Assembly (NCBI GenBank): GCA_028408365.1
Contig: JAOOLD010000007.1
Coordinates: 1 to 64,000, forward strand
Reading direction: 5' to 3'
Source: Bacteroidota bacterium
Lineage (GTDB): Bacteria > Bacteroidota > Bacteroidia > Flavobacteriales > BACL11
Length of the DNA stretch: 64,000 bases
Below, piece by piece: positions 496-10,436 of the stretch (positions are counted from its first letter, which is position 1; each line of letters begins with the position of its first letter). Under the pieces are notes generated by a model that was not told where the DNA came from, did not search any database, and saw only the letters and a list, made by a program, of their open reading frames with translations. The translations under genes and the position numbers were made by a program.

Positions 496-3400
496 TTATC
501 TTATAAGATTAATTGTTCCAACAACTTTTTTACTATCAGCAATTCCATAAGCTTTGTAAATTATTTCATAAGCATAAATACCTGACTGAGCTTTTTTTCC
601 GTTTTTAGTATTACCATCCCACTCTCCCATCATGTAATAGGAATCAGTGAAGTTTTGACTAAAACATGAATTGTATGATGAACTTATTAATTCAATCTTG
701 TTAGATTTGAAAATTTCCTCACTACCCCATCTAGAAAATATTTTAATTGAGAAGTTTTCAAAACCACCAACGCCTATTACAGAAAAGTTATCATTACATA
801 AATCATTGTTTGGGGTAAAGCTTTTTGGTATATGAATTTTATTTTCAGGTATTACACATACCTGAGTGCTTGAAGAATCAATACAACCACCTTCATTTAT
901 TAAAATCAATTTAACATTAAATAGCCCAGTGTCCGAAAAGGTATGGAACGGATTTATTCCAAAAACATAGTTGTCAAAATAGCCATCGTCATAGTCCCAA
1001 TAGCTCTGATTTGAAATCTCAGATTCATTAACAACACTATTGTCAATAAATTGAAACTCTGAGGATAAAATTGATTGACATTGGTTAACATTGGCAAAGA
1101 AAGATGCATTTATCCTTGAATATCCGGGAATCTCAATTAGCTCTGAACTTGAGCAATTAGATAGAATATCTATTACTTCTAAAGTATAGTCACTTCCAAC
1201 TAAATCAGAAACACTATCAAGCTGAGATGGAATAGAATTATTCCATTTAAATTCATAATTACCTGTTGATATCATATTAGCCTTTATATAACCAATTTCT
1301 CCATAACATTTGATTTGAGATGTTTTGTAAGTAAAATCTATACTAGGATGTACAAAAACATAGAAAGATGCTGTAACATCTTCTGAGCAGCCATCAGAAA
1401 GCGTTAAATTATAAGTTGTTGAGCTAGCAGGTGAAATAAAATGTTCAAAACTGTTACTTAATCCATTATCCCAACTAAAAATATAATTTCCATTACCACC
1501 AACTGCATTTGAAGAAATTCTTACTTCTTCACCAATACAAATTGTATCCTTTGACTGACTAATACTAACATCAAGTTTTGGTCCTACTAGAATAACAGTA
1601 TCAACTGAGACAAGGCAATTTCCTGATCCATATTCATATCTTATCTGATGATAGCCTTCTCCTGCTAGAAACGGATTAAAATAATTAGCAACTATCCCGT
1701 TACCAATTAAAATACCACCTGATGGAGATACATTCACTAAAATATTAGAATCAACATTGCAATAAAACCCTTCAATTCCTGTAATTGCTAAGTTTGGAGA
1801 ATTATAAATCTGAATATTAAAAGTATCAATACATGAAGATGGACTTTGATAAAAAATTTGATAAGTACCAACTGACAATGAACTTGGTGAAAAAAGACCA
1901 GTATTAGAATTAATTATTCCTGGTCCTCCCCATGTTCCACCAGATGCAGTTGAATTTAATAAAATGTCATTTGATTGCTTACAAAAAATTGAATCCAAAA
2001 GTTCTGAAGATTGAATGATATTTACTAAAAAGCTGTCTTGACAACTGTTTAGCTCATAAATTAAATAGTGTGAGCCCAGTCCAGCTATGTTGGGATCAAA
2101 GTAATAATTATTATTAATTTGAATGATTCCCGAACCTGACCAAGAACCTCCAGCATAACTTACGGGTACATTATTTAGGTTTTGTATTCCTTCATTTTGA
2201 CAAATATCATAATTACCTATCAATATTTCAGTATTGATTACATTAATATTGATGGTATCTTGACATCCGTTAACTTCATATAAAACATTTGTTGGTCCTA
2301 AAGCTAAAGCTGGATCAAAAGTACCATTAGTTTGGTTAGTGATATAATTTCCAGACCATATTCCTCCTGAGGGTGTCCCACTAAGGTTGAAAGGATTTTG
2401 TAGTGGACATGCGCTAGTATCATTGCCAGCATCTACCTCTTTTATTATAATATTTAATAAATCATCGCATCCTTGAATTGAATACTGTAGATTATTAATT
2501 ATTTCATTTGAATAATCTGAAAGGAAAAAACCATCGATGGTGACTGGACCTGAGAGAATACTAACTTGATCAATAGCAACATCACTTTGCCATCCAGGAC
2601 CTATGGAACCATCTCCTGTAATTACTCTAAACCTTATTAAAAGCTCTGATGAATTAAAATTTGATAAATCTAAATAAACCTCGTTCCACTGATTTCCTAA
2701 ATCACCATCAACACTGTAAAAGTCTAATATCCATGAAACGCCATTATCATTAGATAAGTCAATTGAAAAGCGTCCTTGACCAGCTCCATATTTATGTAAA
2801 TAAAAGCTAAGAATTGGATTGTTGTATTGTGAAAGATTTAGACATGGACTTATAATACTTGCTGTTTTACTTGGATGGTTATTATTTGAGGCTTCTGTAT
2901 ACAAATATTGAATACCTTCAAAAGCAATGCTAGGCCCAGTATTAACAGAGGGTGTTGAGTTGTAATTAAAAGACCAATCAAAATCATTATTTGGATCATG
3001 TGCCCAATTATTTAAACCGAATTCAAAATTTTGTACATAGGGAAAATCAGAAATTGAATTAATACATGTACTACTTAAAAACGGATTCTGTGGCAATGTT
3101 GTCCATGAACCGCCTGATGGGTTAAAGCTGATAGGGTATATTCCTGAGTTCTGACATAAAGTATCATCAGCTTGAACAGACAAACTTGAAACAGTCACAT
3201 CTATTGTATCTGAACAACCGTTTGGTAGACTATAAATAGCATTTATTGTCGCCGGGACCCCTCCTACATCAATATTACCATTTGGCTGTATACATGAACA
3301 GCCAGACCATGTTCCACCAGCCGTAATATTGATAGTATTTAAATCGAAAGTTGGTGCATTAACACATGCGGAAATATCTAAACCAGCATTAATTTCTAAT

Positions 3401-4572
3401 ACATTTACCGTAGTAAAATCTGAACATCCAGAAAACTCATAATTAACATCATATGATCCAGATGGCAAGCCATCTGCAGAAAAAACTCCACTAGATGATA
3501 TGATTCCGATTCCACTCCAAATCCCACCAATTGGGCTTGCACTCAAGTTAATTGGTAAACCAGTTTGACAAATATCAATATTTGATTGAGCAATCGGTGG
3601 AGTGTTAACAACAATTGTAATTGAATCAATAATTTGTGATGCTGGACCATTATCATTTACAGTCAAGAAATAGGTGGTTGTAGAGTTAGGACAAACATTA
3701 ATAACACTGCTACTACTTGTAGAATTTGTCCAACTATATTGATAGCTAGTCGAATCTCCTCCACTAACATTAGAGTAAAGATTAACACATTCTCCTAAAC
3801 AAATTGTATCATCATCGCTTGAGAGCGTCAGTTCAAGAGGACAGTCATTAACAAATATTTGATTTGAAGGAATTAAAGACCATGAATCACCGCATTCGTC
3901 AATATATGTCATATGAAATGACAAATCATAAAGTCCACTTTGATTTAGTCCAGGACTTAATGTTAATTCTATCTGATTTGTAGAATCATTTATACAATTT
4001 ATAGCTAATGGTGAAACAGATTGATTTATAGGTCCTTGAAATAAATAATTAGCAATTAAGACAGAATCACAGTGTATTTTTTGATCTAAATTCACAACAA
4101 CTGTATTTAGACTACATGTTGGATTTGGAGCAAATGAAATTTGAGGTGTTGATGGTTGAGTTACCTCAGCTTCCCAGACCAATTCAAATCCTTCAGCAGC
4201 TACATTTAAATCAGAAATAAAAACAATTGTTACACAACCAGTTGAAATTATTTGAGGCGGTATGTTTGTTCCTGAAAACGGGCCAGCAAGAACTGGATAT
4301 GTTGTGTTTGGCCCATCATATATCACAACATAATCATTTGTTGGCTCAGTATTGAAAGATGTGAAATCAATTGTTATTGAAAGCGTATTGCTAGGGCAAA
4401 TTGTAAAGGCATAGTTTTCATTATGGTCATACCATCCAGCATTTAAAGAATTAGCTTCACTGTCTGTTAAAGTGCCGTAGCATTCATAAACAGTTTGGTT
4501 AGACATAGAAAATTGAGCAAATGAATTAAAACTTATAAAACAAAATAAAATAAGTGTTAATAAACGAATCAT
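496..4572 (-). CDS. Giant secreted protein: N-terminal CUB-like domain, about seven GGxWxGxGI repeats, inserted MAM-like domain, PKD-like domain, C-terminal CHU_C (T9SS type B) domain
   Basis: Signal peptide; C-terminus IPKSFTPNNDLCNDNF...WDGNTKNGKKAQSGIYAYEIIYKA; repeated GGIWSGIGI/GGTWSG/GGSWSGSGI motifs. Confidence 0.85.
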   Translation of the reverse strand: MIRLLTLILFCFISFNSFAQFSMSNQTVYECYGTLTDSEANSLNAGWYDHNENYAFTICPSNTLSITIDFTSFNTEPTNDYVVIYDGPNTTYPVLAGPFSGTNIPPQIISTGCVTIVFISDLNVAAEGFELVWEAEVTQPSTPQISFAPNPTCSLNTVVVNLDQKIHCDSVLIANYLFQGPINQSVSPLAINCINDSTNQIELTLSPGLNQSGLYDLSFHMTYIDECGDSWSLIPSNQIFVNDCPLELTLSSDDDTICLGECVNLYSNVSGGDSTSYQYSWTNSTSSSSVINVCPNSTTTYFLTVNDNGPASQIIDSITIVVNTPPIAQSNIDICQTGLPINLSASPIGGIWSGIGIISSSGVFSADGLPSGSYDVNYEFSGCSDFTTVNVLEINAGLDISACVNAPTFDLNTINITAGGTWSGCSCIQPNGNIDVGGVPATINAIYSLPNGCSDTIDVTVSSLSVQADDTLCQNSGIYPISFNPSGGSWTTLPQNPFLSSTCINSISDFPYVQNFEFGLNNWAHDPNNDFDWSFNYNSTPSVNTGPSIAFEGIQYLYTEASNNNHPSKTASIISPCLNLSQYNNPILSFYLHKYGAGQGRFSIDLSNDNGVSWILDFYSVDGDLGNQWNEVYLDLSNFNSSELLIRFRVITGDGSIGPGWQSDVAIDQVSILSGPVTIDGFFLSDYSNEIINNLQYSIQGCDDLLNIIIKEVDAGNDTSACPLQNPFNLSGTPSGGIWSGNYITNQTNGTFDPALALGPTNVLYEVNGCQDTININVINTEILIGNYDICQNEGIQNLNNVPVSYAGGSWSGSGIIQINNNYYFDPNIAGLGSHYLIYELNSCQDSFLVNIIQSSELLDSIFCKQSNDILLNSTASGGTWGGPGIINSNTGLFSPSSLSVGTYQIFYQSPSSCIDTFNIQIYNSPNLAITGIEGFYCNVDSNILVNVSPSGGILIGNGIVANYFNPFLAGEGYHQIRYEYGSGNCLVSVDTVILVGPKLDVSISQSKDTICIGEEVRISSNAVGGNGNYIFSWDNGLSNSFEHFISPASSTTYNLTLSDGCSEDVTASFYVFVHPSIDFTYKTSQIKCYGEIGYIKANMISTGNYEFKWNNSIPSQLDSVSDLVGSDYTLEVIDILSNCSSSELIEIPGYSRINASFFANVNQCQSILSSEFQFIDNSVVNESEISNQSYWDYDDGYFDNYVFGINPFHTFSDTGLFNVKLILINEGGCIDSSSTQVCVIPENKIHIPKSFTPNNDLCNDNFSVIGVGGFENFSIKIFSRWGSEEIFKSNKIELISSSYNSCFSQNFTDSYYMMGEWDGNTKNGKKAQSGIYAYEIIYKAYGIADSKKVVGTINLIR

Positions 4573-5000
4573 TTGTTAACAGCTATAGTGCTTGTATTGA
4601 TTAAATTACTCCAAGTTCCGCTTTGATCTTGAATCCTAATTGCATAATTTAAGCTTTCACTATTTCCATTTCCAAAAACAAATGGAGCATCAATTTCAAT
4701 AAAAATCTCTCCGACTATAGAAACACTTTGATTAGGTGGGTTCAAAGGATTAAGATGATAATAGTCTGGATTTTCTAATCTACTATCTTTAATTTCTAGT
4801 GATAAATAATCAGGATCATAGAATCCTAAGAAACCTTCTGGATGTTGGTATGATATTCTAACTTGAATATTTTCTTGAAATTCAGTGATTTCGGTAGGAT
4901 TTGTAGAAATATGAGTAATAAAAAAATCTTCATTATTTTCTTCTTTAGTGCATGATGAAATAAAAATCATAATAAAAAAAATGAAAATTAAATTTCTCAT
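4569..5000 (-). CDS. Lipoprotein of unknown function
   Basis: Lipobox-like IFISSCTKEE; 4-nt overlaps with both neighbouring genes. Confidence 0.75.
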   Translation of the reverse strand: MRNLIFIFFIMIFISSCTKEENNEDFFITHISTNPTEITEFQENIQVRISYQHPEGFLGFYDPDYLSLEIKDSRLENPDYYHLNPLNPPNQSVSIVGEIFIEIDAPFVFGNGNSESLNYAIRIQDQSGTWSNLINTSTIAVNK

Positions 5001-5947
5001 ATTATTGTCAATGTAAAATGTTTTATAATTTGATACTCACTTCCATTTGAAGGGATTTCAATAACACCATTAACATTATCATCTACAAAAATTTTTAAAA
5101 AGACAACGTCTCCAACATCAAATTGGGAGACGTCAAGACTATATTTATGAAAAAACTCATCAGTAGTACTCTGATAAAATCCTGTTTCAACTATGGGATT
5201 TGTTAAAACTTCTAGATCATAGAATGGTTTATTCTCAAAATTTAAAATATTGCCTGAGTACTTTAATTTGTTGAAAGAAAGTTGATTAGAAGCAAGTAAG
5301 TCATCTTCGACACTAAAATAAATATCAACAAAATTTAAATTAGAGGGAACATATATAGTTCCTCTTGGCTGAGATCTAGAAATTGGAGATGTTTGACCAG
5401 GTTCAAATGCAATACAACCTCTCATCTCCGGTACTTTATTTGGTAAAACAGGTAGATTTCCAAACATATCTTCTGCACCTGAATCAATCCAGTTTTTAAT
5501 ATTTTGAATGTGCTCTTCTTTGTCATTGTGCCAATAATGTTCTGGATCATACTCTGCTGACAAAGGCATAACACCAGAATTTCCATCAATATCAATTAAT
5601 AATCTTTTATACATTACAGACATCTCAGAATTACCCGGTAAAACTCTATACTGGTAAGTATTGTTGGGATCATTTTTTATTATTGGTTGATATACTAACG
5701 TATTGTATGAGCTTTCAATGGTTCTGAAATCCGGTTCAAAACTACCGTCATGACATCCGGAATTCGCACAAGTTGGTACAAAAATATTATTGTGCAAGGC
5801 AGAAAAAGATGAAGGATTATTAAAGTAGACTGAATCTTCTGTAATTACTGGAAATAAATCCGGATGATCATATGGATTTATAATCTCATCTTTTTTACAT
5901 GAGATTAGAACAAATAATATCACTAAAATTGATATCCTATTAATCAT
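4997..5947 (-). CDS. Lipoprotein with planctomycete-cytochrome (PSCyt1)-like heme domain
   Basis: VLISCKKDE lipobox; VPTCANSGCHDG (CX4CH) then VLPGNSEMSVMYKRL...GVMPL...IKNWIDSGA. Confidence 0.75.
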   Translation of the reverse strand: MINRISILVILFVLISCKKDEIINPYDHPDLFPVITEDSVYFNNPSSFSALHNNIFVPTCANSGCHDGSFEPDFRTIESSYNTLVYQPIIKNDPNNTYQYRVLPGNSEMSVMYKRLLIDIDGNSGVMPLSAEYDPEHYWHNDKEEHIQNIKNWIDSGAEDMFGNLPVLPNKVPEMRGCIAFEPGQTSPISRSQPRGTIYVPSNLNFVDIYFSVEDDLLASNQLSFNKLKYSGNILNFENKPFYDLEVLTNPIVETGFYQSTTDEFFHKYSLDVSQFDVGDVVFLKIFVDDNVNGVIEIPSNGSEYQIIKHFTLTII

Positions 5948-7275
5948 ATTAGATCAAAAAAAGATTGATTACTTGCAAGTAGACCAGTATTTACAATATC
6001 GTTTTTAAATCCTAATATCTCTGCAATAGTTGGAGCAATATTAACAATGTCACCAACTTTATTATTTTCATTTCCAATAAACAAATTTGAGTCAATGCCA
6101 GGACCTACCATCATATTAAATATCCTTTGAGAATTAGAATCTGAGTGATCATAACCATAAAAAGCATTAGCATCTTTAATTCCGTTTGGGTCATCATTTC
6201 TACCATGCTCAGGAGCAACAATCATAGTTGTATTACCTGACATTTCAGGAACTTGATTTTGAATAAAATCCCAGAGATGTCCAACACCATGGTCAGCCCT
6301 ATGTAAACTTCTCAAATAAGAAGAGAAATTCCCATGACATCCATCTACATTAGATAAGTAAATCACTGTTAATGTTGGCTTAAATCTTTTTAGAACCTCA
6401 CATGCATATCCAATTGTCTGTAAATCACCACTATCAGAAATGGGTGGAAATGCTATTGAACCACTATCCTTTTTTTGAAACATATCTCTAACAAACTGTT
6501 TTATTTGTAATTTCTCTTCTTCAGTATTTCCGATATTCGGCAATGCAGAACCTTGTGAATACCAGACATTGTCAAGAAAATATTTCATCTTATACATTGG
6601 ATCCAGCTCTTCCTCAGGATGATATACTTTTGCATTTTTCAAATGCTTATCTCCAGAGTTTCCAAATGTAACAATTGGAGCTAAAAAATTAGCACCATAT
6701 TGAGCTCCATAGTCTGAATGAGTACTGTAATCCAACAATGGGATGGAATTACCAATGCCATTGCCAATAAACCAAGTTTTAGTAGCTTTTTCTCCTGTTA
6801 ATCTTCTTAAATACTCAAATATCGTTGGCGTGAGAGGTTTATTTCTTAATCCTTGTGTAAACATATAATTACCAGTCAAAAGAGTATTTACGCCTGCATA
6901 ATGGCCAACTACTGAAGCATTAACTTCCTTAAAGAATGTTCCTTGTTGTTGAAGTGTTTGAGAAAGCATTTTTGGTATTGGAGTATCTCCGTTTACATAA
7001 TTCGTAGTTCCGTAGACTATTTTATCTGTTGGAGGTGCCCCATCTAAAATATTATACATGATATTTCCGGCGCTAGCATATGCTTGACTATCATCTAAAT
7101 ATCTTTGAAGCACTGATTCTTGCTGTCGCACACCTCCTGCAAAAGCAACAAAAACAACGTGATCAGCCATTCTATTTCCACTTGAAGCAAATAATCTTCC
7201 TGATGGAAGAACAAATGGCATTGTTATGGCAGCTCCACCTAATAACGATTTTTTAATAAATTTTCTTCTTTTCAT
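5944..7275 (-). CDS. DUF1501-family protein (alkaline-phosphatase/sulfatase-like fold), Tat-like signal
   Basis: MKRRKFIKKSLLGGAAITMPFVLPSGRLFAS leader; VVFVAFAGGVRQQES, MIVAPEHGRND motifs. Confidence 0.75.
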   Translation of the reverse strand: MKRRKFIKKSLLGGAAITMPFVLPSGRLFASSGNRMADHVVFVAFAGGVRQQESVLQRYLDDSQAYASAGNIMYNILDGAPPTDKIVYGTTNYVNGDTPIPKMLSQTLQQQGTFFKEVNASVVGHYAGVNTLLTGNYMFTQGLRNKPLTPTIFEYLRRLTGEKATKTWFIGNGIGNSIPLLDYSTHSDYGAQYGANFLAPIVTFGNSGDKHLKNAKVYHPEEELDPMYKMKYFLDNVWYSQGSALPNIGNTEEEKLQIKQFVRDMFQKKDSGSIAFPPISDSGDLQTIGYACEVLKRFKPTLTVIYLSNVDGCHGNFSSYLRSLHRADHGVGHLWDFIQNQVPEMSGNTTMIVAPEHGRNDDPNGIKDANAFYGYDHSDSNSQRIFNMMVGPGIDSNLFIGNENNKVGDIVNIAPTIAEILGFKNDIVNTGLLASNQSFFDLI

Positions 7276-7286
7276 AATAAAATATT

Positions 7287-7778
7287 TTAGTAAAACTGAT
7301 ATTCGTTTGAGAGTGCAAATGCCATATAAACCATCTCTGATGAAACGCTTGGATTTGATTCAAAAAAGTCAATAAAAAACTTTCTCTCCGCCTCAGTAAT
7401 ATCTCTAACATAAAAACGTTTATAGGTTTCTTCAACAAAATGATTCAAATCGCTTCTCATTAGTGAGTCAGATGGAATTAGCACTTGCTGACTGTTCATA
7501 AAATTACTCAACACTATTTCATGAGCAACTTCTTTATCCCCAATTGATTCAATACAATTAGTAATTTCTACTAGCTCATTTGAAGATAATGCTGTTTGAA
7601 ATAAGTTTGCATACAAAATTGATATGTACTGCATTGTTGATTTCAATTTATTCTTGTTAGCATTATATGAAGAGGAATTTATTTGATTTAATTCATAGAT
7701 TGGCTCTTGTTTATTACATGCAAAAAGTAACAAAAATGATATTAAAAAAATAAACTTTCTAAAAATGAGCATATTCAT
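7287..7778 (-). CDS. Small lipoprotein, DUF1585/DUF1553-like C-terminal fragment family
   Basis: LLLFACNKQE lipobox; ...VYMAFALSNEYQFY tail; inside operon. Confidence 0.65.
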   Translation of the reverse strand: MNMLIFRKFIFLISFLLLFACNKQEPIYELNQINSSSYNANKNKLKSTMQYISILYANLFQTALSSNELVEITNCIESIGDKEVAHEIVLSNFMNSQQVLIPSDSLMRSDLNHFVEETYKRFYVRDITEAERKFFIDFFESNPSVSSEMVYMAFALSNEYQFY

Positions 7779-8661
7779 TAGTTTTCATAATCTCTCTTTG
7801 AACATATTGCAAATCATAATCAAAATAAAATGATTGCATTAAAAAATCAGTCTCCTGAGTACTTGGATTTCGTGCCAATAAAGTTAAATAAGACCATAGA
7901 ATAACACCTTCATAAAACTCACTAGTGTTAGAAATAATATGTGTGAATCCTTCTTTATCATTAGCTGATTGACCAAAAACAATTTGAGCAGTGTTATCTT
8001 CAATCATCTTATAAACTTCATCAAACTCATATTGAGTAGGATATCTATATAGTAAGTTGTCAAAAGAGGCATTAACAAAATTAAAAGTATTCATATTGAT
8101 TTGGTCATAGATTGGATTGTAAATCATTCTCCTATGAACCTCATTAATATTTATGTCACCTTGCATGTATTCATGTTCTGAACTAATGATCATTGAAAGC
8201 ATATTAAATTGTAAAAGATTTTTATTTGCTTCCAACAAATTTCCTAATAGAGAATCATTAAGATATCTTTGGTATGCATTACCCATTGCTTCTTGAATAA
8301 CTCCATTTGAAACACCTTCAAGCAATCTAATTTTTAACATTTCATAGGTTCTATGAAAGTATGCTTTCTTGTATGAAGAATCTCCTTCAATAAAAAGGGT
8401 GTCAGATTGCAGTTTAAGAATTAAAGTGTCTCTAGAACCAAAGCTGACATCATTATCTCTTAAATAAAGTACATCTCGTTCCATTTCATCGTCAAGTGGC
8501 TCCCTACCAATCAGGTCAATGTATAATCTATTTAGATAGTTCTCTAGCAAAATTGTAGGAACCTCATCATAGTATGGAGCATAATTATTTCCAATTAATT
8601 CCTTTTCTTTTTCACAAGAAAAAAAACAAAGAATTATTAAGAAATATTTCAAATATTTCAT
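7759..8661 (-). CDS. Lipoprotein, DUF1549-like
   Basis: FFSCEKEKE lipobox; LENYLNRLYIDLIGREPLDDEME resembles the DUF1549 motif; 4-nt overlap with upstream gene. Confidence 0.65.
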   Translation of the reverse strand: MKYLKYFLIILCFFSCEKEKELIGNNYAPYYDEVPTILLENYLNRLYIDLIGREPLDDEMERDVLYLRDNDVSFGSRDTLILKLQSDTLFIEGDSSYKKAYFHRTYEMLKIRLLEGVSNGVIQEAMGNAYQRYLNDSLLGNLLEANKNLLQFNMLSMIISSEHEYMQGDININEVHRRMIYNPIYDQINMNTFNFVNASFDNLLYRYPTQYEFDEVYKMIEDNTAQIVFGQSANDKEGFTHIISNTSEFYEGVILWSYLTLLARNPSTQETDFLMQSFYFDYDLQYVQREIMKTNEYAHF

Positions 8662-9614
8662 TTAACAATTATATTTTCTCTGGTCAAATTTTTGTTATCT
8701 GAAATTTCGAAAATATAGAATCCTTTGTTGAGGATCAATGAGTGATTAATTGATTTATTAATTTCTCCATAAACAATTCTTCCAAAAATATCATAAACTT
8801 TTACATTCAAAGGATTATTATGTTTGGTATAAATATTTACTTTTCCACTACTGGGATTTGGAAAAATTTTAAGTGTTTTTTGGAAATCATTTAAATCGGA
8901 AGCAGAACAGGAATCAACCTCAACATAAATTTCTCCAGTTCTTATACATCCAAATCCATCAATTGCCTCAACTGTGTAAACAGTATTTAAAGTAGGATAT
9001 TCTATTATCATATTTGTTTGTTGACCATTAGACCAATTTACATTTGAGAAAGAGGTGTTTACTTCCATTGATACTGCATCACCTACGCATATGTTTGGTG
9101 GGTTGGGACTACTAGAAATATTAAGAGTACCAACAGAAATTGTAAAACATTCAGTATCAGTACAACCAACTGAATCTTGAGCAGAAACACAAAATATCCC
9201 AACTTCCATAACAGATAAATTTTGATTATTTGATAAAATCTGTGATGGATTGTTTTGATTATACCACTGATAGTTTTGTAAACTTAAAGAAGTTGATGTA
9301 TGAGAAGCAGATAATATTGTAGGGAAATTGCAAACTATTGAATCACCACTTATCACAAGTTCACATGGTGGTGATAAAGAACAAGAATCTCCTGGGTTGA
9401 GAAGTGGATTCACAGGACCTATATTGGTATTTCCATCACATTGTGCCAAACAATCATTAGAATATACAATTCCATTGCAAGCACAAACTGGAGCATAAAT
9501 CATTGGACAAAGACAAAAAGGATTTATTAAAGATGAATCAATACACGAACTCGTTTGTGTAAATGAAAACTTACAAAATAAAAATAAAACAAGTAAGAGT
9601 TTAATTTTTTTCAT
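8658..9614 (-). CDS. Secreted protein with Kazal-type domain and T9SS type A sorting domain
   Basis: CLCPMIYAPVCACNGIVYSNDCLAQC Kazal pattern; IFPNPSSGKVNIY...VYDIFGRIV C-terminus. Confidence 0.8.
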   Translation of the reverse strand: MKKIKLLLVLFLFCKFSFTQTSSCIDSSLINPFCLCPMIYAPVCACNGIVYSNDCLAQCDGNTNIGPVNPLLNPGDSCSLSPPCELVISGDSIVCNFPTILSASHTSTSLSLQNYQWYNQNNPSQILSNNQNLSVMEVGIFCVSAQDSVGCTDTECFTISVGTLNISSSPNPPNICVGDAVSMEVNTSFSNVNWSNGQQTNMIIEYPTLNTVYTVEAIDGFGCIRTGEIYVEVDSCSASDLNDFQKTLKIFPNPSSGKVNIYTKHNNPLNVKVYDIFGRIVYGEINKSINHSLILNKGFYIFEISDNKNLTRENIIVK

Positions 9615-9617
9615 TCT

Positions 9618-9657
9618 TATTGACTTCTAGTTATAAATATAAGAAAAAAAGTCAATA
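9618..9657. promoter_or_regulatory. 9-bp perfect inverted repeat (tattgactt ... aagtcaata) upstream of the 7-gene operon
   Basis: Arms 9618-9626 and 9649-9657, 22-bp spacer. Confidence 0.5.
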
Positions 9658-9674
9658 GATGAATTAAGAAATTT

Positions 9675-10436
9675 TTAGTGAACTCTAACAAATGTAGGAC
9701 AATCATCTGTTGAATTACTCTCAGAATAATTGTACCCCTCTAAATTAAATGAATGTAAATCCTCAACAGTTTGAGCTTTCGTTTGAATGATGTGTCTGGC
9801 CATCAATCCTCTTGCCTTTTTTGCATAAAATGAAATCATTTTGAGCTTTCCATTTTTTTCATCTAAAAACTTTGGAGTAATTACATTATTTTCAAATTTG
9901 TTTAACTTGACTGCCTTGCTATATTCATCTGATGCAAGATTAACTAGGTTTTCTGATGAAGAAATCTCGCTAATCAAAAAATCATTAATTGAATCTCCCC
10001 AATAATCGTATAAGTTTTTACCATAATCTGTTTTAAGCTTTGTTCCCATCTCAAGTCTGTATGGAAGTATTCTATCAAGTGGTTTTAAAATACCATACAA
10101 CCCACTTAAAATTCTTAGGTTGTCTTGAGCATAATTTATTTCACTATCGCTTAGACTTTCTACATCAAGACCTTTATAGACATCCCCTTTAAACATAAAA
10201 ACAGCATAATCAGAATTTCCATTAAAAGGAATTCTCCAATTTTTAAATCTGTTAGAATTAATTTCGGATAAGTTTTCACTAATACTCATAAGCTTTGAAA
10301 GATCACTGATTTTATATCCTTTGAGCATATTAACTAAATTCTCAGCTTTTTTTTCAAATTTAATTTTTGAGAAATTGAAGTCTCTTTGAGTGCATTTGTC
10401 TGAAAGCTTTTTCGCAGGAGAAATAATAATTTTCAT
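9675..10436 (-). CDS. yaaA: Peroxide stress protein YaaA (DUF328/UPF0246)
   Basis: MKIIISPAKKLSD N-terminus; LSGLYGILKPLDRILPYRLEMGT motif. Confidence 0.95.
   Translation of the reverse strand: MKIIISPAKKLSDKCTQRDFNFSKIKFEKKAENLVNMLKGYKISDLSKLMSISENLSEINSNRFKNWRIPFNGNSDYAVFMFKGDVYKGLDVESLSDSEINYAQDNLRILSGLYGILKPLDRILPYRLEMGTKLKTDYGKNLYDYWGDSINDFLISEISSSENLVNLASDEYSKAVKLNKFENNVITPKFLDEKNGKLKMISFYAKKARGLMARHIIQTKAQTVEDLHSFNLEGYNYSESNSTDDCPTFVRVH

Follow-up and report, generated by a model that had tools for sequence, protein, structure and literature searches.

A conserved five-gene cassette of Bacteroidia linking a DUF1501-like protein to a predicted c-type cytochrome lipoprotein

Background

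DUF1501 and planctomycete-cytochrome (PSCyt) modules are abundant in bacteria and their function is unknown (PMC4452313; PMC5615132). DUF1501 itself is an uncharacterised part of gene clusters of the Planctomycetes-Verrucomicrobia-Chlamydiae group (PMC4452313), and in some Proteobacteria it is linked to DUF1800 and chitin synthase (PMC5122149). PSCyt genes, equally abundant and of unknown function, often lie near sulfatase genes or come with carbohydrate-binding domains (PMC5615132). Here we describe seven genes in a 64,000-nucleotide stretch of DNA (hereafter the window) from a Bacteroidota bacterium of the order Flavobacteriales, class Bacteroidia (contig JAOOLD010000007.1, positions 1 to 64,000). 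Five of them form the core of a cassette that is conserved, widespread in the class and, as far as we found, undescribed: a literature search, with subscription journals mostly outside its coverage, returned no description of it in five-gene or six-gene form. The cassette is a split version of the DUF1501/planctomycete-cytochrome modules and not a separate category.

Genuine PSCyt1-DUF1549-DUF1553 plus DUF1501 modules, as known from Planctomycetes and Verrucomicrobia, were seen in genomes G452 and G463 (loci L160 and L161). The cassette resembles them in linking a DUF1501-like protein with a twin-arginine translocation (Tat) signal to a PSCyt1-type cytochrome and a helical partner. However, the modules combine a fusion protein of 700-1100 aa with DUF1501, whereas the cassette encodes separate smaller proteins; its heme motif is CX4CH instead of CX2CH, its helical parts are DUF4214-like instead of DUF1549/DUF1553, and it adds an Ig-like lipoprotein and, in one of two clades (clade A), a partner secreted by the type IX secretion system (T9SS). 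The DUF1800-DUF1501 pairs of Proteobacteria and Bacteroidota (L162-L164) likewise place the gene of a helical protein immediately upstream of that for a Tat-exported DUF1501 protein, but the cassette lacks DUF1800 and the pairs lack cytochrome and lipoproteins. DUF4214 (PF13946) and the phycobilisome linker (PF00427) are matched in sequence by most relatives of both helical lipoproteins, and in helical fold, yet are known as domains of giant or light-harvesting proteins and not as stand-alone lipoproteins of an operon. Finally, Bacteroidota mono-heme lipoproteins, many of them above the PF07635 cut-off, share the C-X4-CH motif, an MP some 50-60 residues on and W[IV]xxGA; the cassette version differs by its own CHDGxFEPDFR loop and an extra C-terminal domain of about 150 residues.

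Each core part of the cassette is a separate gene product of 140-445 residues, with candidate catalytic and heme residues fixed by 67 diverse sequences. It therefore offers a tractable system for learning what DUF1501 proteins do.

Distribution and organization of the cassette

The core genes encode, in order, a DUF4214-like lipoprotein of about 290 aa, a second one of about 160 aa, the DUF1501-like protein (about 435 aa), the heme lipoprotein (about 300 aa) and a small lipoprotein (about 143 aa). This full order is kept in 66 loci, which come from at least 20 families within the class. A reading of the window made from its letters alone (the sequence-only reading) had proposed a unit of seven genes. 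Its gene order does recur in related genomes, though with a core of five; the giant T9SS gene belongs to the unit in one clade, and the family of the window is the only one with the Kazal gene.

With the DUF1501-like protein as query, 73 of 395 genomes of the order gave a match. Strong full-length matches came from families f1, f8, f9 and f14; the remaining matches, mostly in families f3 and f6, were weak, limited to the C-terminal half, and led to generic DUF1501-type proteins. The 40 neighbourhoods taken from this search have the five-gene core in a single constant order. Across the class, a cassette-type DUF1501-like protein was found in 83 of 332 sampled genomes (50 genera), nearly always at 450-660 bits, with the complete five-gene order in 31 of 40 fetched neighbourhoods. 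Of the other nine, two stop at a contig end (L195, L208), one has a disrupted heme gene (L184), one an uncalled open reading frame (ORF; L204) and one an incomplete set (L202), and four are solitary DUF1501-like genes (L179, L206, L207, L214); contig ends or broken reading frames account for most incomplete loci overall. A 398-genome sample of the phylum, where only G000 and G435 had the cassette, had suggested that it is rare. The class sample overturned this view, the low count being due to the families that were drawn.

Three of the solitary relatives are shorter (324-365 aa) and stand without a cassette (L179:7627-8724, L206:8047-9060, L207:7256-8230), two of them followed by a gene for a LEA-like lipoprotein of 154-171 aa. 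Outside the class, single-gene proteins with an alkaline-phosphatase (AP) fold show partial similarity to the DUF1501-like family (L154:7799-9469, E-value = 6e-31; L152:6588-7502, E-value = 3e-37).

In the window, the seven ORFs (Table 1) all start with ATG. Four stop-start junctions are ATGA overlaps of 4 nt (8658/8661, 5944/5947, 4997/5000, 4569/4572), the two DUF4214-like genes overlap by 20 nt (7759-7778), and an 11-bp gap (7276-7286) precedes the DUF1501-like gene, so that the run in one direction is arranged exactly as the sequence-only reading had it. Such tight junctions exceed chance, since the four inner junctions of the core stay within -60 to +60 nt in 59-64 of 65-67 loci and never separate genes on opposite strands. 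Upstream, 60 bp away and in the same orientation, lies a yaaA gene (9675-10436), and the downstream neighbour of the giant gene (49-495) is convergent. The window lies within contig C52 of a source genome of 1.47 Mb, 86% complete.

Table 1. Coordinates of the genes and sequence features of the cassette in the window
Feature	Position	Strand	Evidence
Kazal protein with T9SS type A C-terminal signal, 318 aa; clade-specific first gene	8658..9614	-	Kazal_2 25.0 bits (cut-off 22.8), Por_Secre_tail 1e-8
DUF4214/phycobilisome-linker-like helical lipoprotein, 300 aa; core gene 1	7759..8661	-	DUF4214 matches of relatives, fold; lipobox FFSC-EKEKE
Small DUF4214-like lipoprotein, 163 aa; core gene 2	7287..7778	-	DUF4214 9.7e-4, 19.6 bits, under cut-off 23.2
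DUF1501-like AP-superfamily protein, twin-arginine signal, 443 aa; core gene 3	5944..7275	-	Foldseek, Pfam matches of relatives, hhalign
Twin-arginine motif MKRRKF, N-terminus	7258..7275	-	xRRxF in about 60/67 relatives
H125, sulfatase formylglycine position (H-x8-T-G)	6901..6903	-	67/67 relatives; H-x8-[TS]G also in genuine DUF1501 proteins
D311-x2-H314, predicted metal site	6334..6345	-	67/67; matches DUF1501 D-x2-H
E356-x-G-R359, matching DUF1501 SE-x-GR and sulfatase SDHG	6199..6210	-	E 66/67, G 67/67, R 67/67
D376-H377-S-D379, matching DUF1501 TDHG	6139..6150	-	D376, H377, D379 each 67/67
Predicted monoheme c-type lipoprotein, PSCyt1-like with C-terminal domain, 316 aa; core gene 4	4997..5947	-	hhalign, invariant heme residues
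CANSGCH heme-attachment motif (C60, C65, H66)	5750..5770	-	67/67 relatives
M127-P128, predicted axial methionine	5564..5569	-	67/67; aligns with FoxE 'rMP...WI..GA' stretch
Small Ig/fn3-like lipoprotein, 143 aa; core gene 5	4569..5000	-	weak fn3/Big_3_2 matches in relatives; LES-type C-T-K-E-E
Giant CUB/MAM/CHU_C T9SS protein, 1358 aa; sixth gene of clade A	496..4572	-	MAM 7e-13, CHU_C 3.6e-10, CUB 2.5e-9

The DUF1501-like protein

Neither the window protein nor any other protein of its genome reaches the Pfam cut-off for DUF1501 (PF07394, 27 bits). Profile comparison by hhalign relates it to DUF1501 over the C-terminal half (Prob 90, E-value = 1.4e-6), and its relatives match the Sulfatase (3.6e-7), Phosphodiest (9.5e-7) and, in 1 of 14 relatives, DUF1501 (2e-4) families. 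A Foldseek search with the structural model returned 366 matches in the PDB at E-value<=1e-3 (best, 7.5e-9), including sulfatases, the phosphoglycerol transferases LtaS/LtaP and alkaline phosphatases. The motif set H-x8-[TS]G, D-x2-H, [SP]E-x-GR and DH is present and shared with ordinary DUF1501 proteins. A twin-arginine signal and an AP-superfamily fold, the latter on a medium-confidence model, are found as in DUF1501; TatC is encoded in the same genome. By profile and model, the protein is best placed as a relative of DUF1501 beyond the Pfam cut-off, with a predicted AP-superfamily fold, which bears out its earlier assignment as DUF1501-type.

Sulfatases carry their formylglycine in the motif C-x-P-S-R-x4-T-G. 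Judged by the spacing to TG, H125 would occupy this position. The motifs also suggest that Gly-Gly has replaced the first aspartate of the AP superfamily, which follows strand 1.

The heme lipoprotein

The window heme protein is without a match at the PSCyt1 cut-off (PF07635, 22 bits), and one relative reaches an E-value of 0.07. In hhalign, its alignment to the PSCyt1 domain taken from a genuine module of the planctomycete type has Prob 95 and E-value = 3e-8. As in PSCyt1, a heme motif is followed by MP and W-I-x2-GA. Together with the DUF1501 alignment, these results uphold the earlier idea of a split planctomycete-type module. W153 and the lipid cysteine C17 are present in 67 of 67 relatives, as are the putative heme-binding cysteines and histidine and the methionine of MP. 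The same genome also has a gene for a cytochrome c assembly protein. By its residues the protein is a probable c-type cytochrome lipoprotein with predicted His/Met heme ligands, in line with the heme lipoprotein of the sequence-only reading. Its CX4CH layout is frequent among Bacteroidota lipoproteins.

The helical and Ig-like lipoproteins

Two assignments of that reading were not supported. The 7759-8661 lipoprotein had been called DUF1549-like. The window protein itself gave no match in a Pfam search, and 9 of 13 relatives match DUF4214 (best, 1.4e-7), against three matches to DUF1553 (best, 1e-3), a single one to DUF1549 (0.044) and an insignificant hhalign comparison with L160. Its AlphaFold2 model has a mean predicted local distance difference test (pLDDT) score of 89.7, and the best PDB folds are the phycobilisome linkers 3osj and 3nph, with probabilities of 1.00 and 0.99 but E-values of 0.1-0.25. 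The 7287-7778 lipoprotein, formerly taken as DUF1585-like, matches DUF4214 in 12 of 13 relatives and DUF1585 in none of the 13; C21, K42, K46, D81, R125, E131, E159 and Y160 are invariant in 67 of 67 sequences. Both proteins are classed here, from family matches and, for the first, the model, as DUF4214/phycobilisome-linker-like. DUF1800 was rejected as a relative of the two (hhalign insignificant, Prob 15, E-value = 0.002). The 4569-5000 lipoprotein is probably Ig-like, judging from the matches of its relatives, and G56, G59, D72, R74, P88, G97, D125 and S131 are invariant in 65 of 65 sequences.

All four core lipoproteins possess the lipid cysteine, as expected from the lipoprotein anchoring proposed earlier. 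In Capnocytophaga, the lipoprotein export signal (LES) C-X-K-(D/E)2 was defined and shown to send lipoproteins to the surface (PMC5080379). Among the Ig-like lipoproteins 23 of 61 carry such a signal, and among the small DUF4214-like ones 17 of 63, compared with 4 of 131 other lipoproteins of the same loci, a background set obtained by a crude lipobox rule for a signal that varies within the phylum. In the window it is present in the Ig-like and the heme lipoprotein (C-K-K-D-E in the latter) and absent from the two DUF4214-like ones. Because of this partial enrichment, part of the proposed complex is likely to be surface-exposed.

Two clades and the T9SS proteins

A maximum-likelihood tree of 68 DUF1501-like proteins separates two groups, with support of 100/97 for clade A, which includes the window. 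Of the 34 clade A loci, 32 have a homolog of the giant T9SS gene immediately downstream, the two others (L044 and L195) both ending at a contig edge; none of the 33 clade B loci has one. A regular expression for T9SS C-termini served as a rough flag only. In the trees of the heme, the large and the small DUF4214-like lipoproteins, the A/B split is again one branch (support 100, 99 and 80). Since these component trees share the split with the DUF1501-like tree, we read the cassette as having been duplicated and inherited as a unit, giving two ancient clades. Seven genomes (G001, G048, G743, G751, G755, G897 and G943) carry both forms. The strict link between clade A and a T9SS surface protein provides a lead to the site of action.

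The two T9SS substrates recognised earlier in the window are both borne out by sorting domains above cut-off: CHU_C in the giant protein (40.3 bits, cut-off 27; TIGR04131, at 32.8 bits, is slightly below its cut-off of 35) and Por_Secre_tail in the Kazal protein (35.8 bits, cut-off 27). Homologs of the Kazal gene are confined to loci of family f1, to which the window belongs, and the gene is a family-level addition to the cassette.

The cassette L033:6286-14498 in genome G258 is without the Kazal gene and stands at another chromosomal site without the yaaA/EamA/TlpA flanks, which suggests relocation. A PorP/SprF-type gene comes right after the giant gene in one clade A locus (L151:14855-15841), and ORFs of similar size occupy this place in L198 and L209.

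Proposed function and alternatives

We tentatively favour, at a little short of an even chance, a co-inherited envelope complex made of a DUF1501-like enzyme, a cytochrome and a DUF4214-like scaffold. This reading is proposed because the gene order is kept, the trees share the A/B split, key residues are invariant, the T9SS gene goes strictly with clade A and the LES is enriched, and because of the AP-superfamily fold, the evidence for a cytochrome and the Tat and cytochrome c assembly proteins of the same genome. Most likely, the complex would combine redox and hydrolase functions in the envelope, with a polymer or the T9SS partner as its target; the "redox-active complex" of the sequence-only reading is likewise inferred. 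The DUF1501-like protein would be an active metal-dependent hydrolase or transferase, with histidine replacing the usual Ser/Thr/Cys/formylglycine nucleophile. The DUF4214-like lipoproteins may scaffold it at the outer membrane beside the cytochrome, which would pass electrons to or from the enzyme or its product. The enzyme would act on a polymer. In clade A the giant protein may bind or display this target, or be the target, the likeliest candidates being a surface polysaccharide and the T9SS protein itself. In the window's own family, the Kazal protein probably shields the complex from proteases.

Several observations weigh against this picture. With one heme per cytochrome, the heme could be structural or sensory, and no electron donor or acceptor is linked to the cassette, apart from a one-off insertion in L048 described below. 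The LES is rarer in the heme (7/54) and large DUF4214-like (5/57) lipoproteins, which may face the periplasm. The DUF1501-like model is of medium confidence (mean pLDDT 69.5), and the argument for H125 as nucleophile rests on motif spacing. A broader proposal is more doubtful: that the cassette is a class-wide envelope enzyme system in two ancient forms, one tied to T9SS, in which a heme lipoprotein and a His-nucleophile AP-fold enzyme would perform a chemistry common to the DUF1501 modules of Planctomycetes and other phyla.

One alternative is that the complex processes or anchors T9SS cargo, with the DUF1501-like protein as a transferase by which the giant CHU_C protein would be modified or attached. 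The giant gene is sixth in every intact clade A locus, LtaS/LtaP are among the AP-superfamily relatives, and in L151 the next gene after the giant one is of the PorP/SprF type. Clade B, however, carries these five genes with no T9SS protein linked to them, so that the function common to both clades cannot be to modify a linked cargo; this alternative seems unlikely.

Somewhat less probable is a surface electron-transfer chain, where the cytochrome would oxidise or reduce an external substrate such as a metal and the other proteins would serve for anchoring and assembly. The best PDB sequence match of the heme domain is indeed the iron oxidase FoxE (5mab, E-value = 0.0037), but this match is short and based on a general motif. 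In L048:10371-12805 (genome G048), genes for an Alginate_exp porin and a membrane protein with CPMG, CxxxCP and CxxCxxC, ferredoxin-like by its cysteine motifs, lie between the two DUF4214-like genes of the cassette, co-directional and with short gaps. Only 1 of the 295 genomes searched has such an insertion; it is therefore one-off, and the ferredoxin-like gene was rejected as a regular partner of the cassette. Moreover, each cassette has one heme and no multiheme partner, and the chain leaves the invariant AP-superfamily residues of the DUF1501-like protein unexplained.

We give a similarly low chance to a locus for the uptake or degradation of sulfated or phosphorylated polysaccharides, as suggested for the PSCyt/DUF1501 modules of Verrucomicrobia. 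The analogy would draw on the sulfatase neighbours and carbohydrate-binding domains of PSCyt genes (PMC5615132), on the DUF1501-like fold being nearest to sulfatases, and on the CUB and MAM domains of the giant protein. However, the neighbourhoods read contain no recognised gene for a glycoside hydrolase, SusC/SusD or a sulfatase, and clade B is flanked by unrelated housekeeping genes.

Least probable is a non-catalytic surface structure with a DUF1501-like pseudo-enzyme and a structural heme: the motif reading of Gly-Gly for the first Asp and His for the nucleophile would agree with it, but D311, H314, R359, D368, D376, H377 and D379 are invariant in 67 of 67 sequences and ordinary DUF1501 proteins retain the motif set, an unusual pattern for an inactive enzyme.

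Other observations on the window

The PADLOC models of anti-phage defence gave 0 matches to all seven window proteins, and a defence role of the genes was rejected on this ground. Upstream of the Kazal gene, an 8-bp inverted repeat (TATTGACT/AGTCAATA) was considered as an operator and rejected, since the closest relatives do not keep it. The stretch 9615-9674 holds a TATATTTA-type element, about 20-25 bp ahead of the Kazal start, which is possibly a Bacteroidota-type -7 promoter element, and [TA]ATTTA-type elements are similarly placed in other loci of family f1.

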